Positions 5,657 to 19,964 of a stretch of 24,898 nucleotides of DNA are shown here, piece after piece. Numbering within the stretch: position 1 is the stretch's first letter; the number at the start of each line of letters is the position of its first letter. Below the pieces are notes generated by a model. The model worked only from the letters and a program-made list of their open reading frames with translations. It was not told where the DNA came from and searched no databases. A program made the translations under genes and the position numbers. The DNA comes from a virus. The stretch spans positions 1-24,898 of IMG/VR virus record IMGVR_UViG_3300034166_001322. The stretch is one strand, 5' to 3'.

Positions 5657-6391
5657 ATGATGCTCGACATCAAAAACACTTCGCGCGACTGGAAGCTCTT
5701 CTTGCAGGAGCTGGCAGCTGAAGCTGTGCGCGACGCTGACACAACGCCGCCCGAGATGGCGTTGCACAACGTACTCCACGATCTCTCTCTTGTTGCCAGG
5801 GCCTACGCTGGTCGTCTTGATGACGTAGAGCGCGGCAGTGGCGACGACGATCTCAAGCAGCTGGTCCCAGACGAGGCAAGTCAGCTGGTCACTGATGCTC
5901 CGTCTGCCACACCCGTGGGGCCGGTGTCTCCTTCCGAGTTACCGGATTGGCTGCTTGAGACCATTCGTTCAATGAGCGATGAGATTGAAGCGCTCAAGGT
6001 GCGCCTGTCCGCGCTTGAAGGACAGGCTCAGATTTCCAGTATCGTTCCGACCGAAACCTATCGCGTCGATGAGTTAACGATCTTCGATGAAGATCGGTCT
6101 GCGTGGAATAGCGTGGAGCGCGCGCGTAGCGCACTGCGCGGTATGATCGGTCGCGAGCATCAGAAGAGAACACGGATCCGCCAAGCGATCCTTGCTCGCG
6201 TCACTATGCTGACGGCGCTGCCGGGAGAACTCACGTCCGACGAGCGCGCCGAGTTGCGTCAGCATCAAGACCGTGCAGCCGAGCTGGGTGAGATCGACGC
6301 CATCGCAGGCGTGAAGCTTGATGAGATTGCGGGCATCGATGATCTCGTCACGCTGCGTGAGTACGATCCCATCAAGGGGTGGCCGGAATGA
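5657..6391 (+). CDS. Unknown phage protein with central coiled coil, 244 aa
   Basis: I do not recognise this protein. ATG at 5657 (a second ATG follows at 5660) has AAGGAG at 5642-5647 and GGGG close by. The N-terminal third is helical and acidic, a Pro-rich linker (TPVGPVSPSELP) lies near residue 90, and a heptad-like stretch (MSDEIEALKVRLSALEGQ) near 107-124 suggests a coiled coil. The C-terminal half is helical and charged (RTRIRQAILARVTML, then an Asp/Glu-rich end). No signal peptide or membrane segment is seen. It sits between fibres and lysis genes and overlaps the next start (ATGA), so it is likely a late gene, either structural or chaperone-like for the fibres. The 75-bp gap before it holds no clear terminator. 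Confidence 0.72.
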   Translation: MMLDIKNTSRDWKLFLQELAAEAVRDADTTPPEMALHNVLHDLSLVARAYAGRLDDVERGSGDDDLKQLVPDEASQLVTDAPSATPVGPVSPSELPDWLLETIRSMSDEIEALKVRLSALEGQAQISSIVPTETYRVDELTIFDEDRSAWNSVERARSALRGMIGREHQKRTRIRQAILARVTMLTALPGELTSDERAELRQHQDRAAELGEIDAIAGVKLDEIAGIDDLVTLREYDPIKGWPE

Positions 6392-6771
6392 ACCCGCGTC
6401 GCTGGCCTCGCCCCTGGCTGATGTACATTGGCGTGTTCATCGCGCTGCTTCTCGTTGCCTTCTTCGTGAAGCTCGGTCTCTCCGTGCTTGAGGTGTACGA
6501 GCGCGCGGCGGCAGAGTTCAGACCTGTTCCCGACATGAGTGGCGGCATTGCTGCGATCCTCGGTGCGCTCGCGATGCTGCTCCCGGCCATCGTTCAGGTG
6601 ATGCAAGTTGTCGGTCAGTACGGGCGCGAGCGCCTCGACCAACAAGCGCGAGGTATCCCGCCAACCGGGATCCCTACTCAGCCGCCGCCGGTCTCCGTGC
6701 CGACGGCGGTCGAACCCTCACCAACCGGAGGGCTGGTCAACAACGAAGCGTTGGGTGGAGGACCGTCGTGA
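6388..6771 (+). CDS. Small membrane protein, holin-like candidate, 127 aa
   Basis: The ATG at 6388 overlaps the previous stop (ATGA); AAGGGG lies about eight bases upstream. An alternative GTG at 6379 would add three residues and is less likely. Two hydrophobic segments are visible, about residues 12-32 (WLMYIGVFIALLLVAFFVKL) and 52-72 (GGIAAILGALAMLLPAIVQVM). A polar, Pro-rich tail follows (PPTGIPTQPPPVSVP). Two transmembrane segments, small size and position immediately before a spanin pair fit a class II-type holin. Holins share little sequence, so this rests on topology and context only. The gene also overlaps the next start (GTGA). Confidence 0.68.
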   Translation: MNPRRWPRPWLMYIGVFIALLLVAFFVKLGLSVLEVYERAAAEFRPVPDMSGGIAAILGALAMLLPAIVQVMQVVGQYGRERLDQQARGIPPTGIPTQPPPVSVPTAVEPSPTGGLVNNEALGGGPS

Positions 6772-7613
6772 AATACGCACCGGCCATAGCGATTGCGTTC
6801 GCAGCCATCCTCGGTTTCTTGTTACTCAGAACCGGCTTCGCAATCTTCGGCTGGCTGATGATTGTCGCCATCGTTCTGGTCGGTGCGTTTCTTGCGTGGC
6901 GCAACCGCGCTTCGCTTCGCCTGTGGTGGGCGCGCAAGACTACTGAGTGGCGCAACGATGCACGCACGCTGCGGTTCTGGCTGCAGCTTGCATTCGCCCG
7001 CAAGCGTGATGCGCAAGCCACGGCTGCGATGGCTCACCAGCAGCACTTCCTGCAGGGCCGCGCGATGGATCCTGTCAATATGATCGTGATCGCGACTGTC
7101 GCGGTCGTGGCTTTGCCGATCATCGGCGGGATCCAAGAGTGGCGGATCAATCGCGTGAAGGCCGAGCGCGATGCGCCGTGCTCTGACGTTGAGGTCAGTC
7201 GCAACAGAAACGGAGAGTTCAGAACCCGCCGCCAAGCATGCTCTGCACTTGGCGCAACAATTGAGAGCGCGCTCGACTGGCGCAATCGTGCAATCGAAGC
7301 AGAGGCGACGTTGATCCGAGATATCGCTCGGATCCGGCAAGAGAACGAACTTGCTCGGATAGCAGAGATGGAAAGGCGCGAGAGAGCGGCGCGTACGAGC
7401 GACAGACAAAGGAGACGACAAAATGAAGCGATCACTGCAGCTCTTGGCGGTCCTAGCCCTGACCTCGACCGGAGCCTGTGCGAGCTTGCCGGGCGCGTCG
7501 ATTGTGCCGCGACCGGAAGCGAGACCGGAGCAACCCCAACTGCCGGTCCCGACAGTGTGTCGGGTGAGAGCGGACGAGCCGACGAGCCTGCCGCTACCGA
7601 CCCTCCCGCCTGA
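6768..7613 (+). CDS. Inner-membrane spanin (Rz-like) with an extra N-terminal membrane domain, 281 aa
   Basis: The GTG start overlaps the previous stop. Hydrophobic segments lie at about residues 3-21, 24-44 and 104-123. The third is followed by a long periplasmic-type helical region (130-225, rich in Arg/Glu with heptad character) and a low-complexity polar tail. The part from Met100 (base 7065) alone has the layout of a classic i-spanin: one N-terminal membrane segment then a coiled coil. The lipoprotein gene overlapping its 3' end in another frame supports the spanin call. Residues 1-99 are an addition to the usual ~150-aa family length and could be a fused membrane or holin-like domain, or Met100 could be a second start. 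Tail residues after 225 are constrained by the overlapping gene. Confidence 0.72.
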   Translation: MKYAPAIAIAFAAILGFLLLRTGFAIFGWLMIVAIVLVGAFLAWRNRASLRLWWARKTTEWRNDARTLRFWLQLAFARKRDAQATAAMAHQQHFLQGRAMDPVNMIVIATVAVVALPIIGGIQEWRINRVKAERDAPCSDVEVSRNRNGEFRTRRQACSALGATIESALDWRNRAIEAEATLIRDIARIRQENELARIAEMERRERAARTSDRQRRRQNEAITAALGGPSPDLDRSLCELAGRVDCAATGSETGATPTAGPDSVSGESGRADEPAATDPPA

Positions 7614-7815
7614 AGAGCCAGCGGTTCCAGGCCGCGCTCGCCCCACCGACGTTGATTGGCTGCAGGGAATGCTTCGGCATTTCCAATCGCGCACCTTGCG
7701 CGCGGAGGTAACCCAGTCTTATGCGGTCAATGTTGCGGACGAAGAGCGACGCGTTCGCTTGGAGAACGCGACCAACCAGAACGGATGCGCCGACCAACTG
7801 GAAGCGCGCGAGTAG
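7423..7815 (+). CDS. Outer-membrane lipoprotein spanin (Rz1-like), 130 aa
   Basis: The N-terminus is a lipoprotein signal: MKRS, a hydrophobic core, then lipobox TGAC with the lipidated Cys at residue 19. The next 50 residues are Pro-rich (for example PRPEARPEQPQLPVP), as in Rz1-type o-spanins. The start has AAGGAG about ten bases upstream. Its first 191 bp overlap the 3' end of the i-spanin gene in the +1 frame, the hallmark arrangement of Rz/Rz1 pairs. The product would bridge to the i-spanin and fuse the inner and outer membranes in the last step of lysis. At 130 aa it is longer than lambda Rz1, with a polar C-terminal extension. No endolysin gene is seen in the window. Confidence 0.8.
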   Translation: MKRSLQLLAVLALTSTGACASLPGASIVPRPEARPEQPQLPVPTVCRVRADEPTSLPLPTLPPEEPAVPGRARPTDVDWLQGMLRHFQSRTLRAEVTQSYAVNVADEERRVRLENATNQNGCADQLEARE

Positions 7816-7833
7816 CAAAAGCGGGGGCAAGTG

Positions 7834-8316
7834 ATGGCGACACCGGAAGACTGGATGCGTGATCGCATCATCTTGATCGAACGCGAACTCGGCGGTGCTG
7901 CCGAGCGCGCGCGTTCGCTTGAGCAAAGCGACACTCTCCTTCGCCGGGAGATCACCGAGATCGGCACTCGCATCACCGAAGAAATGAACCGACAGCACGC
8001 GCACCTTCGCGGCGAGATCAGCCGCCTCGGCGATATAATCTCGGCAGAGCGCGGCGAAATGCGCGCTAGGTTTGAAGCCTCGACTAAGAACCTTGAGATC
8101 TCATTGCACGACGCAATGAAGGGATCCCAAGCGACCGTCATGCAGCAGCGTCAGAGGGAGCTGACTGAACAGAACGAGGTGTTCAAGGAGGAGATCGAGA
8201 AGAGCAAGCGCACCAACCAACACCTCGTGTTTGCGTTCGGCATCATCATCGTTATCGGCGAAAAGATATTTGACTACGCGCCGCAGCTCATCTCGATGAT
8301 CAGCCCGACCCCTTAA
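7834..8316 (+). CDS. Coiled-coil protein with C-terminal membrane anchor, 160 aa
   Basis: ATG at 7834 follows GGGGGCAAGTG; a GTG at 7831 would add one residue. Residues 1-130 are almost entirely charged and helical with repeated Arg/Glu heptads (for example TEIGTRITEEMNRQHAHLRGEISRL starts near residue 45 and is part of a much longer run). One hydrophobic segment lies near the C-terminus (HLVFAFGIIIVIGEKIF, about 134-150). The layout is that of a tail-anchored protein with a cytoplasmic coiled coil. It lies between the spanins and the membrane-protein/Hsp70 group, so a role in lysis timing or in a membrane complex is possible. I recognise no family. Confidence 0.7.
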   Translation: MATPEDWMRDRIILIERELGGAAERARSLEQSDTLLRREITEIGTRITEEMNRQHAHLRGEISRLGDIISAERGEMRARFEASTKNLEISLHDAMKGSQATVMQQRQRELTEQNEVFKEEIEKSKRTNQHLVFAFGIIIVIGEKIFDYAPQLISMISPTP

Positions 8317-8339
8317 AGCTACCCAAGGAGACCGACCCC

Positions 8340-9539
8340 GTGGAAGAAAACCTTTGGCTAAAAGCCATGCGCGAATACTGGCGCGACCCCGTCAACGTGA
8401 TCGGCCCGCCGGGTGCTCTCGTGCGTCGCTGCATCAAAGGTCTGTGGATCGTACTCTCGATCTACGTCCTGTTCTGGATTGCTGGCCCGTCGCAAGTCGC
8501 GAGCTGGCAGCTCTGGATGGAGGACGACCGCCTCGCTCATGATCTCGCCTGGGGCTTCACCTTCGCTTCGGCTCTCTGCTTCGCTGTCGTTGCGTATGCA
8601 GCTGAGGGGTCCAAGCCGATCCGCATCCCGGTGTTCCTGCCGGTGTTCGACGGATCGTGGCGCAACCTGAAAGTCCACACTGCGCGACTGCACCTACCCA
8701 ACGTACGCGTCTCGCTTGGATCCGCGTTCGCGATCAGCCTCTTCCTCATGAGTTTGTTGGGGATGTGGAATTATTACTTGCACGAGAACATCAGGACCGG
8801 CGGCGCTAGCGTCGCGGCGGTCGAGGGTTCGACGTCACGCGTGGCCGAAGCGGAGGCGGCTCTCGCCGCCCACCAAACACAAACGCGCGAGGCCTTGGCC
8901 CAGGTCGATGCGGCCATCGCTCAGACCAGCGCCGGATCTCCGACCGGCAGATCTCGCCTTGTTGACCAACGCACGCGCCTCATGACCAGCGCCGCTGAGA
9001 CCGAGGCCCAGTTGCGCGCCGAGCTGCGCGAAGCGCGCGGCGCGACCGTCGAGGTTCGATCTGTCGCGGCGGATCCGCGCCCGGTCGATGGCATCGTGGC
9101 CGGTGCGACCGGCGTCGAGCGCGGCATCGTCGCTTCGTTTCTAGATCTCATGCGCTCTGGTGTGGTCGAGGCCCTGCTCGTTCTCGGCGTGGGCCTGGGT
9201 CTAGCCGGTGGCACCAGCCAGATCGGCGTGCCTAAAGCCAGGGACGAAGAGCCCGAGCCCGAGGCCGAGCCCGAGCCGGTCGAGGAGACCGAGCCCGCGC
9301 CGCCCGAGCCCGAGCCAGATCTGCCGCGCCGCCGGTACGTCCTGCCGGAAGCGACCGATCAGGATCGCACAGAAGCGTCGGCTGTAGGCCCGCACGCTCC
9401 CGTCCAGGCCAAAGCGCCGGAAACCGACAACGTCGATCCTGGGGCTCCTGAGGCCCAACCAGAGGAGCCGGTAACTGAGGATGACCTCGATGACCCGCTG
9501 GCCCGTGAGTACTACGAAAATAACAAGGAGAACGCGTAA
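8340..9539 (+). CDS. Multi-pass membrane protein with coiled coil and acidic Pro/Glu tail, 399 aa
   Basis: A GTG start with AAGGAG nine bases upstream. Hydrophobic segments appear at about 33-49, 70-90, 127-146 and 276-293. Residues 160-240 between the third and fourth are Ala/Glu/Arg-rich and likely a coiled coil. After the last segment comes an extreme Pro/Glu tract (EPEPEAEPEPVEETEPAPP, about 304-323) and an acidic, probably disordered tail to residue 399. The stop overlaps the ATG of the Hsp70 gene (TAATG), so the two are translationally coupled, and the disordered tail could be a chaperone client or docking site. I do not recognise the family, and a function in the host envelope is inference from topology. 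Confidence 0.72.
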   Translation: MEENLWLKAMREYWRDPVNVIGPPGALVRRCIKGLWIVLSIYVLFWIAGPSQVASWQLWMEDDRLAHDLAWGFTFASALCFAVVAYAAEGSKPIRIPVFLPVFDGSWRNLKVHTARLHLPNVRVSLGSAFAISLFLMSLLGMWNYYLHENIRTGGASVAAVEGSTSRVAEAEAALAAHQTQTREALAQVDAAIAQTSAGSPTGRSRLVDQRTRLMTSAAETEAQLRAELREARGATVEVRSVAADPRPVDGIVAGATGVERGIVASFLDLMRSGVVEALLVLGVGLGLAGGTSQIGVPKARDEEPEPEAEPEPVEETEPAPPEPEPDLPRRRYVLPEATDQDRTEASAVGPHAPVQAKAPETDNVDPGAPEAQPEEPVTEDDLDDPLAREYYENNKENA

Positions 9540-11080
9540 TGGCCGACCGCATCGTAGGCATCGATCTCGGCACCAGCACCAGCGTCGTCGCCGCCCTCGA
9601 TCAGGGTGCGGCCAGGATCCTGGCGTTGGACGAGCGCGAGCGTGTGATCCCCACCGTGGTGAGCATCGCGCAGAACGGTGAGATCGTCGTGGGAGCTATC
9701 GCCCGCGATCAGCTTGAGACCAATCCCGAGTACACGTTCACCGGACTTAAGCGCTTGCTCGGGCGCAAGGCCGACGATCCGCAGATCCTCGAATGGGCCA
9801 AGCTCGTTGCGTACGACATCGTGCCAGGGCCGCAGGGCGAAGCGTTCGTGCGCGGACCTGACAAGATCCACGATCCGGTCGATCTCCTTTCCCACGTCTT
9901 CGCCAAGCTGCGTGAGACCGCACGCCAGACACTCGGTGAAGACGTCAACCGCTGCGTCGTCGGCGTACCCGCTCACTTCGATCTCGATCAGAAGGAAGCG
10001 ATCCGGCGCGCGGCCAAGCTCGGCGGGCTGGAGGCTGTGCGCCTGCTGCCCGAGCCGACGGCTGCTGCGGTGGCATACGGTGTGGACCGCGCGAGCAATC
10101 GCACCATCGCGATCTACGATCTCGGCGGTGGCACGTTTGACATCACGATCTTGAAGATCGCCGGTCAGCGCTTCCGCCCACTGGCCACAGCTGGCGATCC
10201 CTTTCTCGGTGGCGAAGACTTCGACCAGCGCATCATGAGCTGGCTGCTGCAGCGCTTCCGCGAGAAGCACGGCATCGATCTTCGCGACGACCCAAGCGCA
10301 CGCAACCGCGTGCGCCTCGCTGCCGAGAAGGCGAAGGAAAGCCTCAGCGCTCAAGGCGCTCACCGGATCTACGCTCGGAACATTGCGCACAGGCCGCTGC
10401 TGCTGGATCTCGATGAGACCATCGACCGCGCCGACTATGAGAACATGGTGCTCGACCTGATCGATCGGACGCGCGGCCCGTGCCGCGAGGCGCTGCGCGC
10501 TGCGAAGGTTGATGTGCGCGACATCGATGAGGTGGTGCTGGTCGGCGGCATGACGCGGACGCCTGCCGTCGGTGAGCTGGTGCGCGAGATCTTCGGACGT
10601 GTGCCGTCGCGCCGCATCGACCCCATCGCCGCCGTCGCTCTTGGCTGCGCGCTGCAAGGTGCTGCTCTTGCCGGTACGCTGAAGAGCGTGGCGCTGACTG
10701 ACAACACGACGATGCCGTTCTCGGTTCAGGTGGGCAGCGGCGCTCTCATCCCGCTCATCAGGGCTAACACGCCGCTGCCTGCGCGCGAGGAGAAAGTCTT
10801 CGGCATTGCGAACCGCGAAGCTGCAGAGGCAGCGGTGCGCGTCTATCACGGCCAGCGCCGCGTCGCGACGCTGATCGTCAACGACATGCAGGAACAGGTG
10901 AAGAGCGAACCCCTGCTCCGCGTGCAGCTCGACGTCAACGACGACGGGATGCTCACGGTCACCGCTCGCAACCCCGCCACGAAGACCGAGGTCACGCATT
11001 CCGTTCACGCCGACACCGGCATGACGGCCAGCGAGATCCAGGGCCTGCGTGACATTGATGAAGAGGAAGCAGCAGCATGA
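9539..11080 (+). CDS. Hsp70 (DnaK/HscC-like) chaperone with shortened C-terminus, 513 aa
   Basis: The full actin-like ATPase domain is present: phosphate 1 loop GIDLGTSTS (7-15), EPTAAAVAYG (172-181), phosphate 2 DLGGGTFD (194-201), LGGEDFD (223-229), AAEKAKESLS (261-270), adenosine loop VLVGGMTRTP (333-342) and DPIAAVALGCALQGA (361-375). A beta-type substrate-binding domain follows (about 380-490). The protein stops near 513 instead of about 610-640, so most of the C-terminal helical lid is missing, with an acidic EEE end. Length and lid loss resemble HscC. It would bind and release unfolded polypeptides under ATP control. No DnaJ or GrpE gene is visible here, so host co-chaperones would be needed. 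It is coupled to a membrane protein upstream and a microprotein downstream. Confidence 0.93.
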   Translation: MADRIVGIDLGTSTSVVAALDQGAARILALDERERVIPTVVSIAQNGEIVVGAIARDQLETNPEYTFTGLKRLLGRKADDPQILEWAKLVAYDIVPGPQGEAFVRGPDKIHDPVDLLSHVFAKLRETARQTLGEDVNRCVVGVPAHFDLDQKEAIRRAAKLGGLEAVRLLPEPTAAAVAYGVDRASNRTIAIYDLGGGTFDITILKIAGQRFRPLATAGDPFLGGEDFDQRIMSWLLQRFREKHGIDLRDDPSARNRVRLAAEKAKESLSAQGAHRIYARNIAHRPLLLDLDETIDRADYENMVLDLIDRTRGPCREALRAAKVDVRDIDEVVLVGGMTRTPAVGELVREIFGRVPSRRIDPIAAVALGCALQGAALAGTLKSVALTDNTTMPFSVQVGSGALIPLIRANTPLPAREEKVFGIANREAAEAAVRVYHGQRRVATLIVNDMQEQVKSEPLLRVQLDVNDDGMLTVTARNPATKTEVTHSVHADTGMTASEIQGLRDIDEEEAAA

Positions 11081-11211
11081 TCAAGCTAGACCAAGCGTCG
11101 CTCACCAACGCCTTGAACTTTGTGCTCAAGTGGCTGGCCGTTTCCGTCGTCGTCTATTTTGGTTGGAATAAACTCGCGCCCTGGATCGACGGTCTCATCA
11201 CATTTATCTGA
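11077..11211 (+). CDS. 44-aa single-pass membrane microprotein
   Basis: The ATG overlaps the Hsp70 stop (ATGA), and the frame runs 44 codons to TGA at 11209-11211. One hydrophobic segment (about residues 13-30, FVLKWLAVSVVVYFGW) is followed by an amphipathic end (APWIDGLITFI). Translational coupling to a chaperone gene and a clean membrane segment argue for a real gene. It is the last + strand gene before a bidirectional terminator. The function is unknown; it could anchor or modulate the Hsp70 or the upstream membrane protein. Confidence 0.6.
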   Translation: MIKLDQASLTNALNFVLKWLAVSVVVYFGWNKLAPWIDGLITFI

Positions 11212-11310
11212 CGCCTGCGCCGCGCGCTGTCGCGCGCCGATCTGACGAGGATCCGTCCTCAGAAAGAGAGCGCGGCAAACGCTAGCGCAGAAGCGGTGCC
11301 TGAAATGCAA

Positions 11311-11337
11311 AACGCCCCGGCGATTAGCCGGGGCGTT
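11311..11337. terminator. Bidirectional intrinsic terminator between convergent genes
   Basis: A perfect 11-bp stem (AACGCCCCGGC / GCCGGGGCGTT) with a GATTA loop lies between the end of the + strand Hsp70 group and the end of the - strand gene at 11359. On the - strand the stem is followed by TTTT, so termination is probably stronger in that direction. Bases 11212-11310 hold no gene that I can support. Confidence 0.85.
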
Positions 11338-11358
11338 TCACTTTGGTGGGCGCTGGCC

Positions 11359-12078
11359 TTAGTCCTTGCGACCGCCAGCGAAGATCTTGAGGCCGCCCGC
11401 CTTCTTCTTCTCAGCTGCCTTCTTCTCAGCAGCGCGACGGCGGCGGGTTTCCGCACCTTGCTTCGCAGCGGCGCTGCGCTTCAGGTGCTCGAACTCTGCC
11501 TTCGTCATCGGGGCCGGAATGCGAAGCACGTCGGCACCGAAGAGTAGGATGGCCTGGAAGAAGATCGCCATCCAGAACTCAAAGTCCAGAACAGACAGAG
11601 CGATTGAGCCCGGCGTCTTTTCTTGGATGCGCCAGCGAGCAGCGTTACGCTCCATCACATCCGACTGGGGGTCTTCGACAACGTCGAGATCCAGTTGGTA
11701 CGACGACGGGTGGCCCGCCATTGCAGGCGTCGAGTAGGCGAGCCACTCGTCCTGCATGTTGTCGGCCTTCACAGCCGAACCGAAGAACGACGCCGGGACA
11801 ATCGCTAGGGCGATGGCCAGCACGCGAGCCGGGAAGGCGCGAGCGCGGACGTGGCCACGGTAGTCTTCCTTCAGCGAGCCAGCGACTGCGAAGGACACGA
11901 CAGCGAGCAAAGCGAAGATGCCCGAGATCATGGCCCAGCTGATGCCAGCGAAACCGTCGTTCTCGTGAAGCGCACCCACGATGGAGCGTGTCTCGACGGT
12001 GATGACAGCGACGACGATCAAGACGCCGATGCCGATGGAGGCCCATTGGTGGCCCTTCAGATCTTTAAAGTTAATCAT
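11359..12078 (-). CDS. Multi-pass membrane protein with basic C-terminal tail, 239 aa
   Basis: The start chosen is ATG at 12078, preceded by AAGGAG; the frame extends further upstream but across its own promoter. Hydrophobic segments lie at about residues 15-34 (WASIGIGVLIVVAVI), 44-67, 87-108 and 156-178. The C-terminal 45 residues are Lys/Arg/Ala-rich (EKKAAEKKKAGG), cytoplasmic by the positive-inside rule. A central region (115-150) is polar. I do not recognise the family. It has its own operator-bearing promoter (12115-12144) and terminator (11311-11337), so it is a single-gene unit, probably an early or host-takeover membrane protein by that regulation. Confidence 0.75.
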   Translation of the reverse strand: MINFKDLKGHQWASIGIGVLIVVAVITVETRSIVGALHENDGFAGISWAMISGIFALLAVVSFAVAGSLKEDYRGHVRARAFPARVLAIALAIVPASFFGSAVKADNMQDEWLAYSTPAMAGHPSSYQLDLDVVEDPQSDVMERNAARWRIQEKTPGSIALSVLDFEFWMAIFFQAILLFGADVLRIPAPMTKAEFEHLKRSAAAKQGAETRRRRAAEKKAAEKKKAGGLKIFAGGRKD

Positions 12079-12114
12079 GTTGGTCAGCTCCTTGCCCTCT
12101 CCGGGGCGGCGCAT

Positions 12115-12144
12115 TCTATAACGCAACTCGCTCTGGATGTCCAG
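12115..12144 (-). promoter_or_regulatory. Module A: promoter with CTGGACATCCAG operator over the -35
   Basis: On the - strand, -10 TATAGA (12115-12120) is 17 bp from TGGACA (12138-12143), a five-of-six match to TTGACA that lies inside the 12-bp palindrome at 12133-12144. A protein bound to the palindrome would cover the -35. It drives the gene at 11359-12078. Confidence 0.7.
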
Positions 12145-12149
12145 CGTAC

Positions 12150-12176
12150 AAAAAAAGCCCCGCTCTCGCGGGGCTT
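12150..12176 (-). terminator. Intrinsic terminator after the 179-aa gene
   Basis: A 9-bp stem AAGCCCCGC / GCGGGGCTT with a 4-base loop is followed on the - strand by seven T. It separates the gene at 12200 from module A. Confidence 0.88.
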
Positions 12177-12199
12177 CAAGTTAGTTGGTCGGGAGCGAC

Positions 12200-12739
12200 C
12201 TAGAGAACAACGGTCCAGCAATTCTTGTCGAGCTGGTAACCGACTTGCGCCGCTGCGTGGCGCGCAATGAGCCGCGCGATGCGTTGGCTGCGGCGGTTGA
12301 TCTTTGAGCCCTCGCTAAAGTAATCGAAATACCAGCCAGGAACGCGGGCCGGATGGTCGTCGCCGAGATTGATGAGCGGGACGTGAACGCGAACATGCGT
12401 GCCGCTCTTCGATGCGATGATGCCAGCTTTGCGAAGCTTAGCGGCAACCTTCGTCGCGCGCTTATCGGCGTCGGTCACCTTGCTCTTCTTGATCTCGTTC
12501 GCCTTCGCGTTCGTGATGACTTCAACCTTCAGCGTCTTCGCCTCGACAAAATTGCCGCTCTTAGCGTAGCGGCTTGTGACCGCGTTCGCGAGATCCAGGC
12601 GCGACGCCCAACCGGCGTCGGTCCACTTGTTTGGTTCGCGCTTGCTGCGCACCGCAGTCATGTACGCGTACGTACGGCTCTGCGATGAGCGACGGAGGAT
12701 TGTGCCGTCGGGTGCGATAGCTTGGAAATGTGTGGTCAT
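12200..12739 (-). CDS. Unknown protein, 179 aa, basic and helical
   Basis: ATG at 12739 with GGAG eight bases upstream; TAG at 12200. The sequence is rich in Lys, Arg and Ala. The middle (TNAKANEIKKSKVTDADKR, then ATKVAAKLRKAGI) looks helical and basic, and the C-terminal third (RSQRIARLIARHAAAQVG) is also a basic helix, which would suit nucleic-acid binding. There is no Cys pair, signal peptide or membrane segment, and I recognise no family. It has its own operator promoter (module B) and its own terminator, so it is probably expressed with the other operator-controlled early genes. Confidence 0.72.
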   Translation of the reverse strand: MTTHFQAIAPDGTILRRSSQSRTYAYMTAVRSKREPNKWTDAGWASRLDLANAVTSRYAKSGNFVEAKTLKVEVITNAKANEIKKSKVTDADKRATKVAAKLRKAGIIASKSGTHVRVHVPLINLGDDHPARVPGWYFDYFSEGSKINRRSQRIARLIARHAAAQVGYQLDKNCWTVVL

Positions 12740-12771
12740 GTGGTCAGCTCCGTGTGTTGTCGTTGGCCGAT

Positions 12772-12800
12772 TGTATAATCTGGATGTCCAGATAGGTCAA
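12772..12800 (-). promoter_or_regulatory. Module B: promoter with operator in the spacer; upstream stop codon inside the -35
   Basis: Reading the - strand, TTGACC (12795-12800), a 17-bp spacer holding CTGGACATCCAG (12780-12791), then TATACA (12772-12777). The TGA stop of the preceding gene (12797-12799) is the TGA within TTGACC. No terminator hairpin separates the two genes. Confidence 0.82.
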
Positions 12801-12985
12801 TAGCCCAGCGCTTCCAGCAGCTGGCGACGGCTGACCATGCCATCCTTCACCTCGACCACAACCCACCCGGCGTCATCGCCCGTGCCTTGTAGCGCGGCCA
12901 GTGTGGTGCCGTGGGCGCGAGCGATGCGCTCGGCGATGGCGACGCCACACGTCTCTTCTTCGTCGGCCCAATCTTCGCTGGTCAT
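12797..12985 (-). CDS. Small acidic protein, 62 aa
   Basis: ATG at 12985 has AGAGGAG about ten bases upstream. The N-terminus is acidic (TSEDWADEEETCG), followed by a short helical part and a beta-like stretch (WVVVEVKDGMVSRRQLLEAL). The end, DGMVSRRQLLEALGY, resembles the small helix seen in many phage proteins of unknown role. There is no promoter in the 54-bp gap before it, only a terminator hairpin (13012-13033), so expression depends on read-through from 13040-13426. Its stop codon lies in the -35 of the next promoter. Confidence 0.62.
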   Translation of the reverse strand: MTSEDWADEEETCGVAIAERIARAHGTTLAALQGTGDDAGWVVVEVKDGMVSRRQLLEALGY

Positions 12986-13011
12986 GTGATGTCTCCTCTA
13001 CTTAAAGCAAA

Positions 13012-13033
13012 AGCCCCGCCTTGCGGCGGGGCT
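13012..13033 (-). terminator. Intrinsic terminator or attenuator after the DUF6011-like gene
   Basis: A 9-bp stem AGCCCCGCC / GGCGGGGCT with a TTGC loop, then TTTTGCTTT on the - strand. The downstream gene at 12985 has no promoter of its own, so termination here may be partial. Confidence 0.8.
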
Positions 13034-13039
13034 CTCAGG

Positions 13040-13426
13040 TTAGCGCTTGGCGCACTCGGGACCGAGGCCGGTCTTGATGCTCTCGGGAACGGTGAGCTTC
13101 CGAGCGCAGCGACCGCACCGGCCTTCGTGGTGGATCTCCAGATCCGCGTGGTTCGGATTGCGGATCGCGAAGTCCAGTGCTTTCACCGGCAGGCTGTCCG
13201 CGTTCATGCGGGACTTGGCGGTGAGACGAACGCCGCGCTGTGAAGCGAGGCCGAGGTAGACGTAGTCTACCTCGTTGTTGGGGCCAGCGAGGAGAGAGGC
13301 GAAGAACGTGTCGCCATCTTTGGCCTTGCGGACCCGGTAGGTGTAACGAGCTTGGGTCTTCTTGGAGACCACGGTGACCGTGGCGTTACCGGCGAAGATG
13401 AAGCTGGCTGCGTCTTGAACTTGCAT
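13040..13426 (-). CDS. DUF6011-like zinc-binding protein, 128 aa
   Basis: The start chosen is ATG at 13426, since longer readings would run through the promoter at 13452-13480. The C-terminus carries GRCGRCARKLTVPESIKTGLG, then GPEC: Cys104, Cys107 and Cys125 with the L-x-x-P-x-S spacing typical of DUF6011, a small phage and actinobacterial zinc-finger-like motif. Residues 15-80 are beta-rich (TVTVVSKKTQARYTYRVRKA), the usual partner domain in such proteins. It probably binds zinc and perhaps nucleic acid; the biological role is not known. It has its own operator promoter (module C). Confidence 0.78.
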   Translation of the reverse strand: MQVQDAASFIFAGNATVTVVSKKTQARYTYRVRKAKDGDTFFASLLAGPNNEVDYVYLGLASQRGVRLTAKSRMNADSLPVKALDFAIRNPNHADLEIHHEGRCGRCARKLTVPESIKTGLGPECAKR

Positions 13427-13451
13427 GTTGCACCTCGTTGTGGAGGCCCAT

Positions 13452-13480
13452 TGTATAACTGGACATCCAGACAAAGTCAA
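13452..13480 (-). promoter_or_regulatory. Module C: promoter with CTGGATGTCCAG operator in the spacer
   Basis: On the - strand: TTGACT (13475-13480), 17-bp spacer containing the palindrome (13459-13470), TATACA (13452-13457). The -35 begins in the descending arm of the terminator at 13478-13507. Confidence 0.85.
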
Positions 13481-13507
13481 ACGCCCCACCTTTCGATGGG
13501 GCGTTTG
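13478..13507 (-). terminator. Intrinsic terminator whose 3' arm and T-tract form the next -35
   Basis: An 11-bp perfect stem (CAAACGCCCCA / TGGGGCGTTTG) with an 8-base loop; on the - strand the arm runs on as GTTTGACTTTG, giving both the T-rich tail and the TTGACT box of module C. It lies just after the stop of the gene at 13517. Confidence 0.82.
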
Positions 13508-13516
13508 CTCTCTGAT

Positions 13517-13858
13517 TTACTCCACGTCCCAGACGAACGAGGAGCACAAGCCGCAGACGAACGCGGTTGTGCGTGCCGCAACCATGCGCTTGCGAGCGGC
13601 GGCAACTAATGATGCGCGCTTCAGCGTCATCACGCGGCGTGCTTCGTACACCTCACGCTCTCGTGCTTCCTTCGCGATGGCGTCGAAGTCAGCCGCCGCG
13701 CGCTCCTGCGCTTCCGACAAGTCCAGGCCGCGATCCATGAACCGGCGAACCGCATCGCTCGCCTGCCCGAAAGCGCCCTCGTTCACCGCGTCCTGCTCGC
13801 GGCAGGACAAAGCGCCCCAATCAGCCGCCGCGCGTTCGTCAATGTTTTGGTCGATCAT
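13517..13858 (-). CDS. Unknown helical protein with C-terminal CxxC, 113 aa
   Basis: ATG at 13858 preceded by GGAG; TAA at 13517-13519. The body is Ala/Arg/Glu-rich and helical, with repeated AxxxFD and AREREVYEARR stretches that could form a coiled coil. The end FVCGLCSSFVWDVE has a CxxC pair, perhaps metal binding or redox. There is no signal peptide or membrane segment, and I recognise no family. It is a single-gene unit between module D and the terminator at 13478-13507. Confidence 0.7.
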   Translation of the reverse strand: MIDQNIDERAAADWGALSCREQDAVNEGAFGQASDAVRRFMDRGLDLSEAQERAAADFDAIAKEAREREVYEARRVMTLKRASLVAAARKRMVAARTTAFVCGLCSSFVWDVE

Positions 13859-13883
13859 CGCTCTAACTCCGTGGTGAGCCCAT

Positions 13884-13912
13884 CATATAATCTGGATGTC
13901 CAGAAAAGTAAA
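13884..13912 (-). promoter_or_regulatory. Module D: promoter with CTGGACATCCAG operator in the spacer
   Basis: On the - strand: TTTACT (13907-13912), 17-bp spacer with the palindrome at 13892-13903, TATATG (13884-13889). The -35 is made from the T-tract of the terminator at 13910-13935. Confidence 0.8.
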
Positions 13913-13935
13913 GCCCCGCCTTTCAGCGGGGCTTT
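13910..13935 (-). terminator. Intrinsic terminator after the 100-aa gene, fused to module D
   Basis: A 10-bp stem (AAAGCCCCGC / GCGGGGCTTT) with a 6-base loop; the - strand continues ACTTTT. It begins five bases after the stop of the gene at 13941 and shares bases 13910-13912 with the next -35. Confidence 0.85.
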
Positions 13936-13940
13936 TCAGT

Positions 13941-14243
13941 TTACCGGCGGGAGAGATCCAGTGCGTCTCGCACCTTCACCAGCTTGTTCGCTTCGCGAAC
14001 GTCCTGCGGTGGGCAGTTCTCCAGAATGTACTGGCAACCCTCGGGCGTGAGCGTCCACCCGTCAGGCTTGATGCGTGCCAGGATCTCCATCGGTCGGCAG
14101 ACTTCCTGGGGAAGCTCCTTGTTGTTCTCGTCCCAATAGCGACGAGTGGCGAGATCGCCGCCGGGCGAAGTCAACATCAGATCGCCTCGGGCCGAGACCA
14201 TCAGCTTGGTGACTACGCGGTTGTGCCATGCTTGTGCTTGCAT
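13941..14243 (-). CDS. Unknown protein, 100 aa
   Basis: ATG at 14243 with GAGGAG about nine bases upstream; TAA at 13941. The central part (ATRRYWDENNKELPQEVCRP) is polar. A later stretch, PDGWTLTPEGCQYILENCP, has the LTPEG element seen in winged-helix and other small regulatory domains, but I would not assign a family from that alone. It is a single-gene unit with module E upstream and a terminator five bases after the stop. Confidence 0.7.
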   Translation of the reverse strand: MQAQAWHNRVVTKLMVSARGDLMLTSPGGDLATRRYWDENNKELPQEVCRPMEILARIKPDGWTLTPEGCQYILENCPPQDVREANKLVKVRDALDLSRR

Positions 14244-14266
14244 CTGTGTGCTCCTCGTGAGCCCAT

Positions 14267-14295
14267 CGTATAATCTGGATGTCCAGAAAAGTAAA
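14267..14295 (-). promoter_or_regulatory. Module E: promoter with CTGGACATCCAG operator in the spacer
   Basis: On the - strand: TTTACT (14290-14295), 17-bp spacer with the palindrome at 14275-14286, TATACG (14267-14272). The bases from -35 to -10 are nearly identical to module D, so D and E look like recent copies. Confidence 0.8.
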
Positions 14296-14318
14296 GGCCC
14301 CGCCGAAGCGGGGCCTTT
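14293..14318 (-). terminator. Intrinsic terminator after the metalloprotease gene, fused to module E
   Basis: An 11-bp perfect stem (AAAGGCCCCGC / GCGGGGCCTTT) with loop CGAA on the + strand; on the - strand a TTCG tetraloop and a TTTACTTTT tail that also supplies the -35 of module E. Confidence 0.88.
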
Positions 14319-14322
14319 CTTT

Positions 14323-15060
14323 CTACAGCAAGTTTGACGGGACGTACTTCCAGGCTTTGGCTCGCGCCTCGGCCTCGGTCATCGGGACGTTCCAGCGCTT
14401 CGCGTCGTTAAGGTAGAACGTGGTCTGCGCTTCGATCCACGCCTCGCACTTCGCGATGCGCTTCGCTTCGGCGCGAGCCCGAGCCTTCTCGGCGAACGCG
14501 GCGCGAGCCGCGATCTGAGCTGGCGTCGCTGCTTTCACCGCACGCTTCACCGGCTTGGTGAACTTGACGCCGTGGGCCTTGAAGCTGGCCTTCAGTTGAT
14601 CGTGAGCTTCCTTGCCCATGATGAACTTCACGACGTCGAGGTAGATCGCGGCGAAGCGCCAGCCGTGCGACGCACGCTCGTACGGGTTCTCGTTGGTCGA
14701 GAAGATGTCGTTCAGCTCGTGAGCCATCTCGTGGCACACGATCCAATCGAGCATCGCAGGCGGGCCGTACTTGACGTAGCCGCCGTAGCTGGCAGCGCCA
14801 CCGCGCTTGCGGCGGGTGTCGATCTTCACCGTGACCGAGCGACCTGGGCGACCGCCACGATACTTCGTGTTCAGGCGCTTCGACATCCCGATCTTCCAGT
14901 GCAGCGCTTCCATCTCTTCAACCGACACGCGGTTGCCGAGCTTCATTGCACCGGGCGTAGCGCCCGGCGCGCCGCTCAGTACGCGGCCAGGGTAGTACGA
15001 AAACACAGCGCGCTCTGCCTTGTAGAGCTTGCTGCGTTGTGTGTCTTTTGCTCGTGCCAT
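14323..15060 (-). CDS. HExxH zinc metalloprotease-like protein (SprT-like), 245 aa
   Basis: The motif CHEMAHELND (His110, Glu111, His114) is a zincin active site, and a downstream SHGWRF (His132) is well placed as third zinc ligand, as in SprT-type proteins where HExxH is followed by HGxxF. The N-terminal 100 residues are basic (KRLNTKYRGGRPGRSVTVK). The C-terminal 80 residues are a long Ala/Lys/Arg helix followed by a compact end. SprT-family proteins cleave DNA-bound proteins or occur as uncharacterised phage proteins; a DNA-associated protease is a reasonable guess, not a demonstration. The ATG at 15060 has GAGGAG upstream. No membrane segment. Confidence 0.72.
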   Translation of the reverse strand: MARAKDTQRSKLYKAERAVFSYYPGRVLSGAPGATPGAMKLGNRVSVEEMEALHWKIGMSKRLNTKYRGGRPGRSVTVKIDTRRKRGGAASYGGYVKYGPPAMLDWIVCHEMAHELNDIFSTNENPYERASHGWRFAAIYLDVVKFIMGKEAHDQLKASFKAHGVKFTKPVKRAVKAATPAQIAARAAFAEKARARAEAKRIAKCEAWIEAQTTFYLNDAKRWNVPMTEAEARAKAWKYVPSNLL

Positions 15061-15090
15061 GTGGTCTTGCTCCTCGTCGTCAGGCGAGGA

Positions 15091-15131
15091 GCCTTACCAC
15101 GGCAGCGTTTAATAGTCAACTGGACATCCAG
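15091..15131 (-). promoter_or_regulatory. Module F: CTGGATGTCCAG operator abutting a weaker promoter
   Basis: The palindrome is at 15120-15131, only four bases after the TAG stop of the RHH gene. Directly downstream on the - strand comes TTGACT (15114-15119), 17 bp, then TAAGGC (15091-15096), a poor -10. Here the operator lies upstream of the -35 instead of in the spacer, so regulation may differ from the other modules. No terminator is seen before it. Confidence 0.6.
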
Positions 15132-15135
15132 ATGC

Positions 15136-15357
15136 CTACCGGCTCTGGCTCCTGCCTCGCGCGTGAGAGTAAAGGTAGACGCGCACTGCAGCGGCCAGCG
15201 ACATCGTGGGGTCAGTGCGCGTCTCGCCGATCTGCGCGACCAGCTTTGGCGGCGTGGTCTTGCGCTCATCAACGAGCTGCTCAAGGCCATCCCAGAAGAC
15301 GGCCTCCAGAGCGAGGCTGGTGCGCAGGCCGTTAATACGCATGGACTTCTTGATCAT
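15136..15357 (-). CDS. Ribbon-helix-helix DNA-binding protein (RHH_4-like), 73 aa
   Basis: Residues 3-20 (KKSMRINGLRTSLALEA) form the basic ribbon, followed by FWDGLEQLVDER and a PPKLVAQIGETR / SLAAAVRVYLYSHAR helix pair. This pattern, with the RTSLxLExxFWxxL signature and a final AxRVYL helix, matches the RHH_4 family common in Alphaproteobacteria. Such proteins dimerise and bind short inverted repeats. The gene is last in the operon started by module G, overlaps the gene before it (TAATG) and ends four bases before operator F. It is therefore the best in-window candidate for the protein that binds CTGGAYRTCCAG; that link is inference. Confidence 0.85.
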   Translation of the reverse strand: MIKKSMRINGLRTSLALEAVFWDGLEQLVDERKTTPPKLVAQIGETRTDPTMSLAAAVRVYLYSHARGRSQSR

Positions 15358-15563
15358 TATCGGCCCCTCTTCTTCGATGCCATCTCTACCAGCGCCATGC
15401 GCAGGATCTCTGGGTCGCTCTCGCTGAATACGCGACGCAGCTTTGCCAGGGCGGCAGCGCTCTCGGCGCTGTGACGCACCAGCGTCTTCGTGCTGGTCTC
15501 TTCGCGGCGCAGCTCAGCATCGATCTGAGCCTGCGTCCGCTCGCGCTTAATGCTTCGTTTCAC
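15357..15563 (-). CDS. Small basic helical protein, 68 aa
   Basis: I choose GTG at 15563, which has GGAGG six to seven bases upstream inside the end of the preceding gene; a longer reading to 15608 lacks a good ribosome site. The protein begins VKRSIKRERTQAQIDAELRRE and is helical and charged to the end (ILRMALVEMASKKRGR). It overlaps the previous gene by 17 bp and the RHH gene by one base (TAATG). The charged helices would suit a small nucleic-acid-binding or partner protein; I recognise no family. Confidence 0.62.
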   Translation of the reverse strand: MKRSIKRERTQAQIDAELRREETSTKTLVRHSAESAAALAKLRRVFSESDPEILRMALVEMASKKRGR

Positions 15564-15741
15564 TCTGGGCCTCCAGTTCCATCCGATAGATCTCAAGAAA
15601 CGGCACATAGCTTACGTTACCGTCCTTGTCTTGTCGGATACCACCTGACCCGTGGAGCGCAAGATCCTGCGCCCAGCGCTCTAGATCTTCCTCTGAGAGC
15701 TGCTTCAGCAGCGCCTTAAAAGTATTCTGATCGATGGTCAT
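15547..15741 (-). CDS. Small unknown protein, 64 aa
   Basis: ATG at 15741 overlaps the stop of the previous gene (ATGA). The sequence (MTIDQNTFKALLKQLSEED, then LERWAQDLALHG) is acidic and helical, followed by a short beta-like stretch (DGNVSYVPFLEIYRMELEAQ). No motif is recognised. It is in the middle of the seven-gene operon that begins with the SNF2 helicase. Confidence 0.65.
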   Translation of the reverse strand: MTIDQNTFKALLKQLSEEDLERWAQDLALHGSGGIRQDKDGNVSYVPFLEIYRMELEAQSETKH

Positions 15742-15923
15742 GCTTCCACCTCCGGCGTGCGTACGTCGTAATAGACATTGCGCGGCACCTCCCTGCCGAC
15801 TTCCTGAAAGAGAAGCTCGACGGCTCGGTAGGTGTAGCGGCTGAGAACCCAGACGCCTGGGGTCTCAATTAGTGCGCGGGCGGCGCGGCGCTCGCCGGGC
15901 GTGCCGAGATCTTCAAGCTTCAT
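15738..15923 (-). CDS. Small unknown protein, 61 aa
   Basis: ATG at 15923 overlaps the previous stop (ATGA) and its own stop overlaps the next start (ATGA). The body (GERRAARALIETPGVWVLSR) looks like a compact alpha/beta fold with a hydrophobic core. No Cys, membrane segment or known motif. Its reality rests on the coupling at both ends and its typical codon use. Confidence 0.65.
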   Translation of the reverse strand: MKLEDLGTPGERRAARALIETPGVWVLSRYTYRAVELLFQEVGREVPRNVYYDVRTPEVEA

Positions 15924-16069
15924 GCCTTCTCTCCCTCAATGATAGCACGCGCAGCGGCGATGGCTTCTTCAAGCCGTTCTGATGGTGGGATGCCGCGCCC
16001 TGTCCCGCTGAGCTGACGCTCGATGGCGGTGATCAGTTCGTTCACGATCTGCTTCTCGCGTTCGTTCAT
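15920..16069 (-). CDS. Very small unknown protein, 49 aa
   Basis: The frame runs from ATG at 16069, whose A is shared with the stop of the previous gene (TAATG), to TGA at 15920, which overlaps the next start (ATGA). The product starts MNEREKQIVNELITAIERQL and continues with SERLEEAIAAARAIIEGEKA: two amphipathic helices joined by a Gly/Pro linker. The perfect fit between its neighbours argues that it is translated. Function unknown; a small helical adaptor is one possibility. Confidence 0.62.
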   Translation of the reverse strand: MNEREKQIVNELITAIERQLSGTGRGIPPSERLEEAIAAARAIIEGEKA

Positions 16070-16290
16070 TAGTAGCGCCCCCGATAGAGCGCCGGATCAA
16101 AGTAAGGCGAACGCTGGCAACGCTTACAGGTGACTTGCTCCTTCACCTCAGTCGCGATCAGGGCGTTCTCTTCGTCCAGGCCGCACGCAATCTTGCGCGT
16201 GGTGAATGCATTCTCGTGGGCTACGATGACCGCCACGAAATGCGTAGGTCGGCGGCGGATCTTCCGCCCCTTATAGTCAAGCTCGCTCAT
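16069..16290 (-). CDS. Small zinc-finger-like protein, 73 aa
   Basis: ATG at 16290 overlaps the stop of the SNF2 gene (ATGA). The protein has Cys36, then a CKRC pair at 55-58, in the setting VTCKRCQRSP. The central part (THFVAVIVAHENAFTTRKIACG) is beta-like. Such one-and-a-half zinc-knuckle layouts occur in many small phage proteins. It could bind zinc and nucleic acid or partner with the helicase encoded just upstream; that is inference from position. Confidence 0.68.
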   Translation of the reverse strand: MSELDYKGRKIRRRPTHFVAVIVAHENAFTTRKIACGLDEENALIATEVKEQVTCKRCQRSPYFDPALYRGRY

Positions 16291-18407: not shown

Positions 18408-18414
18408 GGCGGTC

Positions 18415-18443
18415 TGGATATCAACTGGACATCCAGGTGTCAA
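18415..18443 (-). promoter_or_regulatory. Module G: strong promoter with operator in the spacer; stop codon inside the -35; likely leaderless
   Basis: On the - strand: perfect TTGACA (18438-18443), a 17-bp spacer that starts with the palindrome CTGGATGTCCAG (18425-18436), then TATCCA (18415-18420). The TGA stop of the preceding gene (18440-18442) is inside TTGACA. Only seven bases separate the -10 from the ATG at 18407, so the transcript would begin at or next to the start codon. Confidence 0.82.
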
Positions 18444-18940
18444 CCCTCCTGGGCCTGGGGTCCGACGACCGACATGTCCAAGATGATCACGCCCTCTTCG
18501 CTATGGAGCGGCCCGGCGATGGTCGCATAAACCGCAGCGAGGAGGGGGCCGGTGGCTTCGCCGGATCTGATGGCTTCGGCGGTAAACGCCGGGCGGGATC
18601 CGACCGAGACAAAGGCGTCGCGGGTGTAAGTCGAGACCGATCCCTCGATCATCCGGTCGAGATCGATCTCTTGCTGAGGATCCGCACGGAAGAGGACCGA
18701 TACGGTCAGCTCGATAGGCTGGCCGTCGGAGCTGGCGAACTCAACCTCGTACCAACCGACGCGCTCTTCGTGCCGGATGTGATAGCCCCGGCGCTGATCG
18801 TAGACGGCAGTATAGCCGTCGGGCGCATCGCGGGGGTCCGGTCGCGGGGTGCTTGGCCAGAGCCATGCGAAGAAGCTGATGCCGACAACGATGAAGAGCG
18901 CAGCGATCATGATGTACTGCATTGGTGAGAGGGTCTTCAT
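18440..18940 (-). CDS. Membrane-anchored protein, possibly SPFH/prohibitin-like, 166 aa
   Basis: One N-terminal hydrophobic segment (residues 9-28, YIMIAALFIVVGISFFAWLW) anchors a soluble domain. That domain has WYEVEFASSDGQPIELTVSVLFRADP (about 62-88 in total, shown in part), which resembles the core strand pattern of SPFH/prohibitin proteins where a promiscuous 'DGQ-x-hydrophobic' turn is followed by alternating strands. The length is shorter than full prohibitins (about 280 aa) and no coiled-coil tail is visible. I rate the family as possible only. ATG at 18940 with AGGAGA upstream; ten bases separate it from the GcrA-like gene. It is the last gene of its operon, and its stop codon lies in the -35 of module G. 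Confidence 0.7.
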   Translation of the reverse strand: MKTLSPMQYIMIAALFIVVGISFFAWLWPSTPRPDPRDAPDGYTAVYDQRRGYHIRHEERVGWYEVEFASSDGQPIELTVSVLFRADPQQEIDLDRMIEGSVSTYTRDAFVSVGSRPAFTAEAIRSGEATGPLLAAVYATIAGPLHSEEGVIILDMSVVGPQAQEG

Positions 18941-18949
18941 GGGGGTCTC

Positions 18950-19618
18950 CTAGTAGCGGTTGAGGGATTGCTTGATGCGCTTAAGCTCGTTGTCTCGGCG
19001 CTGATCTTCCTTTGGGTCATAGACGAGGAGCCGGTGGTCTTCGCAGTAGGGCGTCACGCCATCCTCACCGACACGGCGGCATGGTTTAACGAACGCAGCG
19101 CGCCCGCAGTAGGCGAAGCCTGGGAGCTTCGGATCCCCAATAGGGTAGTGGCAGAGGCCGTGCCGGATGTCCGTGATGGAGAGGGGGTTGCCGTCGGACT
19201 TAGCAAGTGGCCCCAGCTTGCGGGCTGCTTCCTTGGTCTGGACGTCCAGTCGAACGACGTTCGATGGCGGTAGCGCCTCGGAGTTTACCGGCGTCGGCGC
19301 GGTGGACCCGCTGTGATCGATCTTAAAGTAGCTGCTCTTAGGCTTAGGGCGACCACCTTTATCCCTCACAGGTGGGCGGTCACCCTTCGCCCGCGACAGC
19401 TTGCCGACGACGGCGTTGCGGCTTGGCGGAATGTCGTTCGGCCATCGCTGGCCCAGCATCTTGCTGATCTTACCGGCGGACGCGCCGAGCCTCGCTTGCT
19501 CGTACACGAACGCGTCGCGCTCGGCGTCCCACGGATAGTTGGTTGTGCGTTTGCGTTCTTGCTCTTTCGGCGGCGCAGCCGCGCGCTTGTCGATCTGGCC
19601 TGCGGAATATGCGCTCAT
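18950..19618 (-). CDS. gcrA-like: GcrA-family cell-cycle regulator homologue, 222 aa
   Basis: The start chosen is ATG at 19618, with GGAGGG upstream and the previous stop one base before; a longer frame reading overlaps the previous gene. The N-terminal domain (about 29-75) has the GcrA pattern: W-x-x-E-x-D, GASAGKISKMLG, then SRNAVVGKLSR. The C-terminal part (about 154-200) matches the GcrA end: CHYPIGDPKLPGFAYCG, then TPYCEDHRLLVY. Host GcrA binds RNA polymerase sigma70 and promoters methylated at GANTC by CcrM. The phage copy could redirect host transcription or act on phage promoters. The ~75-residue linker between the two domains is longer than usual and Pro/Ser-rich. Confidence 0.85.
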   Translation of the reverse strand: MSAYSAGQIDKRAAAPPKEQERKRTTNYPWDAERDAFVYEQARLGASAGKISKMLGQRWPNDIPPSRNAVVGKLSRAKGDRPPVRDKGGRPKPKSSYFKIDHSGSTAPTPVNSEALPPSNVVRLDVQTKEAARKLGPLAKSDGNPLSITDIRHGLCHYPIGDPKLPGFAYCGRAAFVKPCRRVGEDGVTPYCEDHRLLVYDPKEDQRRDNELKRIKQSLNRY

Positions 19619-19619
19619 C

Positions 19620-19865: not shown

Positions 19866-19890
19866 GCTTGTGCTCCTTTGCAGGGCGAGC

Positions 19891-19920
19891 CCTATAGCTT
19901 GTGGGTTGAGGAAGAGTAAA
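19891..19920 (-). promoter_or_regulatory. Leftward promoter of the GcrA-like operon
   Basis: On the - strand, TTTACT (19915-19920) is 18 bp from TATAGG (19891-19896). It lacks the CTGGAYRTCCAG palindrome but is directly preceded by the inverted 14-bp element at 19921-19934. Confidence 0.6.
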
Positions 19921-19934: not shown

Positions 19935-19964
19935 CTTGCCTGTGGATATCTTTCAGATTGGGGG

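Follow-up and report, generated by a model that had tools for sequence, protein, structure and literature searches.

Ssz1 and HSPA14 are lid-poor Hsp70 proteins that act in stable complexes, and the Hsp70 homologues of closteroviruses assist virion assembly. Among phages, the moraphages, which are large phages, encode DnaK and DnaJ (PMC12619734). In DnaK, the surface of lobe IIA of the nucleotide-binding domain (NBD) forms a negative groove that takes up the positive helix II of the J-domain, and the lobe IIA surface of Ssq1 is likewise negative and receives this helix (PMC5519331, PMC7289447). Coevolving interfaces may insulate specialised Hsp70/partner pairs, as in the case of Ssq1/Hsc20 (PMC7289447). 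Here, we describe a lidless Hsp70 encoded on the IMG/VR virus record IMGVR_UViG_3300034166_001322, a stretch of 24,898 bases that was analysed as a whole and is referred to as the window. The charge of its J-domain docking site is inverted, and its gene is flanked by those of a four-helix membrane protein and of a 44-amino acid (aa) peptide with one hydrophobic segment. Our preferred view is that the phage expresses this triad late in infection as a dedicated chaperone module, with a membrane-recruited Hsp70 insulated from host DnaJ; we give it somewhat less than an even chance of being correct. We found no description, in the open-access literature searched, of a BPP-1-like podovirus whose Hsp70 belongs to a lidless lineage, has an inverted J site, and is accompanied by an orphan membrane protein.

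The three open reading frames of the triad occupy positions 8340-9539 (399 aa), 9539-11080 (513 aa), and 11077-11211 (44 aa) on the plus strand. The membrane-protein gene starts with GTG and the Hsp70 gene with ATG, each with the Shine-Dalgarno sequence AAGGAG on its 5' side. TAATG at 9537-9541 joins these two genes, and ATGA at 11077-11080 joins the Hsp70 gene to that of the peptide. A sequence-only reading of the window made before this analysis had given the same coordinates and junctions, which proved exact when re-read in the sequence. A second contig (G001) belongs to the same phage, with 99.7% identity over window positions 9414-24898, and G002 (57,369 bases) represents one independent, distant relative. 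G002 has the three genes in the same order (membrane protein, Hsp70, 44-aa peptide), and the first two overlap there as well; the identity is 53% for the four-helix protein and 64% for Hsp70 (69% in the NBD and 48% in the beta-subdomain of the substrate-binding domain, SBD-beta). In the present data the four-helix protein and this Hsp70 lineage never occur apart. A relative that carries Hsp70 and lacks the membrane protein, which would speak against the coupling proposed in the sequence-only reading, was not found, G002 being the sole relative. That proposal had included all three genes, and it is supported for Hsp70 and its upstream neighbour and more weakly for the peptide, since sequence homology of the two peptides is not shown: the relative's peptide (L083:19102-19236) likewise has 44 aa, one helix and the same place, but the alignment of the two is no better than that of shuffled sequence (z=-0.5). 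The 44-aa peptide also gave no convincing family match.

The product of 9539-11080 is, judged by its sequence, without doubt an Hsp70. It matches PF00012 with E=5.6e-134 and 448 bits (gathering score 20.6) as well as phrog_22485, and consists of an NBD (approximately aa 1-381), a linker, an SBD-beta (approximately aa 393-500), and a short end helix. An AlphaFold2 (AF2) model with a predicted local distance difference test score (pLDDT) of 79.5 and a predicted template modelling score of 0.70 contains the NBD, the SBD-beta with eight strands after the linker, and one short helix. Foldseek searches with the full-length model ranked DnaK structures first, truncated constructs included (E=3.8e-53). 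The DnaK residues D8, G10, K70, E171, D194, T199, and D201, which represent the phosphate-1, phosphate-2, adenosine, and catalytic motifs, are identical in the phage protein. This alignment bears out the earlier statement that all ATPase motifs are kept, and the protein appears to be ATPase-competent. With DnaK it further shares the NBD fold, the SBD-beta, and the interdomain trigger network R167/D393/D481. It differs in that N170 is replaced by P/S in the two phage proteins, the linker VLLL reads VALT, and the substrate pocket carries the changes V436A and M404G. The best DnaK-type models score the protein with 337-458 bits, and all equivalog cut-offs are missed by far, both for the NCBIfam DnaK models (458.5 vs 648 bits and 439 vs 822 bits) and for HscA (355.9 vs 708.6 bits).

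A further difference from DnaK concerns the C-terminus. Only 18 residues in the window protein and 28 in its relative follow the position equivalent to DnaK 507, as compared to 131 in DnaK, 112 in HscA, and 82 in HscC; seven Hsp70s from phage records have 82-150 residues there. Other matches from viral contigs run at least 71 residues past the match, and about 100 or more where the contig end does not cut them. The C-terminal helical lid of canonical DnaK is absent, not merely shortened, in both phage Hsp70s. The sequence-only reading had called the lid largely lost as in HscC; the loss stands, but the likeness does not. Both HscC and the phage protein have a C-terminus shorter than that of DnaK and a linker ending in LTD, but HscC retains 82 residues after the SBD-beta as well as an acidic docking hairpin (-2), and lies apart from the phage pair in the trees. 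An HscC-like identity was rejected on the basis of C-terminus length and tree grouping. In both trees, which were computed with FastTree and a limited sampling of cellular Hsp70s, the two phage proteins pair with full support and form their own long, deep branch, separate from DnaK, HscA, HscC, and the DnaKs of huge phages. An HscC-like Hsp70 of 558 aa was observed in a 27-kb human faecal record annotated as 'bacteriophage' (L184; MT835719.1, 7020-8462).

The position of the pair in the trees also bears on its origin. The closest DnaKs found, alphaproteobacterial plasmid-borne ones in a plasmid collection, reach 40.6% identity at best, which, together with the separate branch, disfavours a recent capture from the host. 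Loss of the lid could reflect decay of a host Hsp70 that was captured by chance and has no function in the phage. We consider such a neutral passenger highly improbable: the gene is intact in two phages at 64% identity, its nonsynonymous divergence (dN) of 0.32 is well under the synonymous divergence (dS) of 1.40 (with dS near saturation), which indicates purifying selection, the lineage-specific changes are common to both proteins, and neither lies near any host DnaK. The DnaKs of huge and Lak phages are, like those of moraphages (compared here by description only), phage-encoded Hsp70s, but they are found in large genomes, and the huge- and Lak-phage proteins examined are full-length (621-656 aa), have an acidic J site, and fall in or near cellular DnaK branches.

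Lid loss would also fit a phage Hsp70 that, similarly to Ssz1 or HSPA14, no longer cycles as a chaperone and mainly serves as a structural, nucleotide-dependent part of a membrane complex. The lower conservation of the SBD-beta relative to the NBD (48% vs 69%), the pocket changes M404G and V436A, and the altered linker fit this explanation, and Ssz1 and HSPA14 resemble the phage protein in lid loss and a presumed stable partner, a likeness based on description and not on sequence. These two proteins are, however, eukaryotic and ribosome-bound together with a J-protein. Retention of all catalytic residues and of R167/D393/D481 would be unexpected if hydrolysis were dispensable, and we regard a mainly structural role as quite unlikely.

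The second major deviation from DnaK affects the J-domain docking site. The lobe IIA hairpin equivalent to DnaK 203-219, encoded at 10145-10183 on the plus strand and assigned by alignment, reads TILKIAGQRFRPL in the window and TLLKITGQKFRPL in the relative, and carries a net charge of +3 in both. The corresponding charge is -3 to -5 in 92 DnaKs, -2 to -3 in six alphaproteobacterial DnaKs, which have a similarly short hairpin, -2 to -4 in the seven Hsp70s of phage records, -2 in HscC, and +1 in HscA. Across the whole NBD, this hairpin is the most positively shifted stretch. The acidic lobe IIA surface that receives J-domain helix II in canonical DnaK is therefore not present (+3 vs -2 to -5), and with its docking surface inverted in charge the phage Hsp70 should not work with host DnaJ in the usual way. 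HscA/Ssq1 with HscB/Hsc20 offers a precedent for a dedicated Hsp70 insulated by an altered J-docking surface, although HscA keeps its lid and its J partner, and we saw no Fe-S genes around the phage Hsp70. The stretch that is most negatively shifted relative to the 92 DnaKs corresponds to DnaK 293-309 in lobe IIB (-7.6) in both phage proteins; it is a second changed surface, possibly on the side of the nucleotide-exchange factor.

Searches for co-chaperones covered the window, the second contig of the same phage, and the 57-kb relative. No match to the J-domain family PF00226 was detected in these three contigs even at E=10, and none of the cassette genes contains an HPD motif, in agreement with the earlier observation that a J-protein is missing. 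GrpE was not detected in the three contigs either; the relative has only a sub-threshold coiled-coil match of 12.7 bits. Another explanation is a role in counter-defence or host takeover, in which the phage Hsp70 would compete for clients or partners of host DnaK, for example to blind DnaJ/DnaK-dependent defences or to alter the heat-shock response. Counter-defence has been proposed for moraphage DnaK/DnaJ, and bNACHT25 sensing requires DnaJ (PMC12619734). A phage J-protein acting on DnaK and sigma-32 is known from RB43, a precedent we take from its citation in that paper (PMC12619734). The inverted docking surface would nevertheless make the phage Hsp70 a poor decoy for DnaJ, its gene is located in a structural/lysis-like block and not in the early region, and it gave no PADLOC match, which renders this explanation improbable.

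The upstream partner (8340-9539, plus strand) is 53% identical to its counterpart in the relative (L083:16228-17490) and likewise shows purifying selection, with a dN of 0.48 and a dS of 1.96, the latter near saturation. It matches no family in Pfam, PHROGs, PADLOC, or PDB, and apart from the one relative we found no homologues in phages, plasmids, viral or genome contigs. Hydropathy predicts four transmembrane (TM) helices, encoded at 8430-8486, 8544-8600, 8709-8765, and 9147-9203; in the relative's protein, one of the four stays under the hydropathy threshold. Considering hydropathy and charge, both termini and the basic loop between TM2 and TM3 are predicted to be cytosolic, and the 127 residues between TM3 and TM4 to be extracytoplasmic. 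The latter segment includes a putative helical hairpin (aa 165-235; 8832-9044); its tip, TSAGSPTGRSRLV, does not differ between the two phages. In the AF2 model, based on two sequences, the helices 155-195 and 201-244 are the sole confident part, with a pLDDT of 76-92 over aa 171-230.

The long acidic Pro/Glu tail that the sequence-only reading had pointed out is present at aa 299-399 (9234-9536). It is predicted to lie on the cytosolic side, has a net charge of -22 in the window and -19 in the relative, and was modelled by AF2 with low confidence. Within the tail, the segment RRRYVLPEAT (9327-9356), aligned to KRRYTLPAAT in the relative, is a speculative candidate for an Hsp70-binding segment and is similar to YLPRP, the stretch of ARV-1502 to which DnaK binds (PMC8864165). 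As a statistically clear docking site the YxLP motif was rejected (p=0.19).

Taken together, the conserved gene order and the opposite charges of tail and hairpin are consistent with the following scenario for a membrane-recruited chaperone module. The four-helix protein would act as a private recruiter in the inner membrane, with its acidic tail facing the cytosol close to the site of Hsp70 synthesis, and would hold Hsp70 at this membrane. A physical partnership of the two proteins seems to us to have about an even chance. The tail might dock on the basic Hsp70 hairpin, a detail that we consider rather unlikely as such. Held at the membrane, Hsp70 would engage stretches left exposed on membrane, tail, or lysis proteins of the phage and, lacking a lid, could run fast ATP-driven cycles, helping with the insertion, folding, or timed release of these proteins at the end of infection. 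We assign such a role in the exit or assembly stage tentatively, with some doubt. A more specific version, in which the acidic disordered tail replaces the J-domain protein by docking on the inverted J site, offering its own YVLP segment to the lidless cleft, and tying the chaperone to the inner membrane late in infection, appears unlikely.

Several observations weigh against a membrane-recruited, insulated Hsp70. Only two kinds of phage carry the gene pair, so that their co-occurrence amounts to one independent comparison, and genes in a phage late operon may be neighbours by accident. Conservation within the membrane protein is lowest in the tail (30% vs 53% overall), and the conserved RRY.LP.AT cluster within it is not significant (p=0.19). 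Finally, the patch of HscA is near-neutral (+1), and HscA nevertheless works with HscB as its J partner, which means that the change in charge alone does not exclude a J partner.

The genomic surroundings provide information on the possible clients. The triad closes a tail-fibre/lysis-like operon of this BPP-1-like podovirus at its 3' end, a position that argues for late expression of the Hsp70 block. G001 continues into genes whose place and sequence resemble those of the relative's terminase and portal genes, and in G002 the order is terminase, portal, capsid, tail, internal virion protein (3220 aa), fibres, membrane/lysis-like block, and Hsp70. The internal virion protein links both phages to BPP-1-like podoviruses of Caulobacter, Cobetia, Vibrio, Pseudomonas, and Bordetella. 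This arrangement permits another explanation, namely that Hsp70 is a soluble, specialised chaperone for the internal virion protein and the collagen-like tail fibres, and that the membrane genes are mere neighbours. Hsp70 shares strand and gene block with the fibres and the internal virion protein, collagen-like and LPD repeats are difficult to fold, and closterovirus Hsp70 homologues assist virion assembly; closteroviral Hsp70h and p65 are among the structural matches of the model. Closterovirus Hsp70h is comparable as a virus-encoded Hsp70 homologue, but it comes from plant RNA viruses, is only about 20% identical, and has an unrelated genome context. Against a soluble virion chaperone, comparably large virion proteins and fibres occur in Carin1, Jess A, and further BPP-1-like phages, none of which is among the phage Hsp70 matches; Carin1 and Jess A share the architecture, and behind their fibre an amidase or glycosylhydrolase with small proteins, i.e., a murein-hydrolase lysis cassette, takes this place. 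Since the Hsp70 gene is also placed at the lysis end and overlaps the orphan membrane gene in both phages, we consider such a chaperone rather unlikely.

The membrane surroundings of Hsp70 are wider than the triad noted earlier, as four further membrane or lipoprotein genes on the plus strand precede it. The block has the same order in the window and in G002: a soluble protein, a 2-TM protein, a membrane protein with a coiled C-terminus overlapped by a lipoprotein, a coiled TM protein, the four-helix protein, Hsp70, the 44-aa one-helix peptide, a strong inverted repeat, and convergent genes. The 2-TM protein (6388-6771) is holin-like by topology only and 60-62% identical to the relative's counterpart; it has no match in phages. 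A search for more relatives with this gene and that of the internal virion protein yielded only G002 and one distant contig, L176 (27%). The membrane protein with the coiled C-terminus (6768-7613) and the Pro-rich lipoprotein with the lipobox LTSTGAC (7423-7815), encoded in another frame inside the 3' end of the former gene, show the Rz/Rz1-type layout, and the same overlap exists in the relative. From this layout and the lipobox, we consider them candidate inner-membrane and outer-membrane (Rz1-like) spanins; neither had a relevant spanin profile match in Pfam or PHROG. A recognised endolysin is not adjacent to the pair, and a weak SLT domain in the relative is far off (G002 7828-8793). The following coiled-coil protein with a C-terminal TM segment (7831-8316) is 29% identical to its counterpart (z=8.2). 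Behind the peptide gene, a perfect 12-bp inverted repeat at 11310-11338, AAACGCCCCGGC-GATTA-GCCGGGGCGTTT, closes the operon as a probable bidirectional terminator; it was not picked up by a consensus terminator scan, and the relative has a similar hairpin at the equivalent place. In both phages, the product of the convergent gene (window 11359-12126, minus strand; G002 49627-50478, minus strand) is a multi-pass membrane protein; the two sequences are not clearly similar.

Beyond the late block, the window encodes a GcrA-like cell-cycle regulator (PF07750; 18950-19753, minus strand). GcrA is an alphaproteobacterial regulator, and the homologue suggests that the host is probably an alphaproteobacterium, whose cell cycle the phage may influence through this protein. 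The early region contains eight perfect copies of the palindrome CTGGAYRTCCAG (at 12133, 12780, 13459, 13892, 14275, 15120, 18425, and 19238), with 0.12 copies expected even if one mismatch is allowed. Several copies adjoin TATAAT or TTGACA, and the palindrome is a probable operator of a phage regulator; it is absent from the 17 kb examined in the relative (L089). The early block further includes an SNF2-type helicase (16287-18443, minus strand; 126 bits) and a weak, sub-threshold SprT-like match (14323-15060, minus strand).

Most phage Hsp70s described to date come from large genomes and closely copy the host-type DnaK. The lineage presented here, a podovirus of roughly 57 kb, carries an old and divergent Hsp70 that lacks the lid and in which the site used by J-proteins has a charge opposite to that in nearly all Hsp70s compared. 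If this protein still cycles, it would offer a natural test of whether a chaperone Hsp70 works without a lid and whether a factor other than an HPD-containing J-domain can drive the Hsp70 ATPase. The triad also offers a concrete case in which chaperoning at the membrane may take part in phage assembly or lysis.

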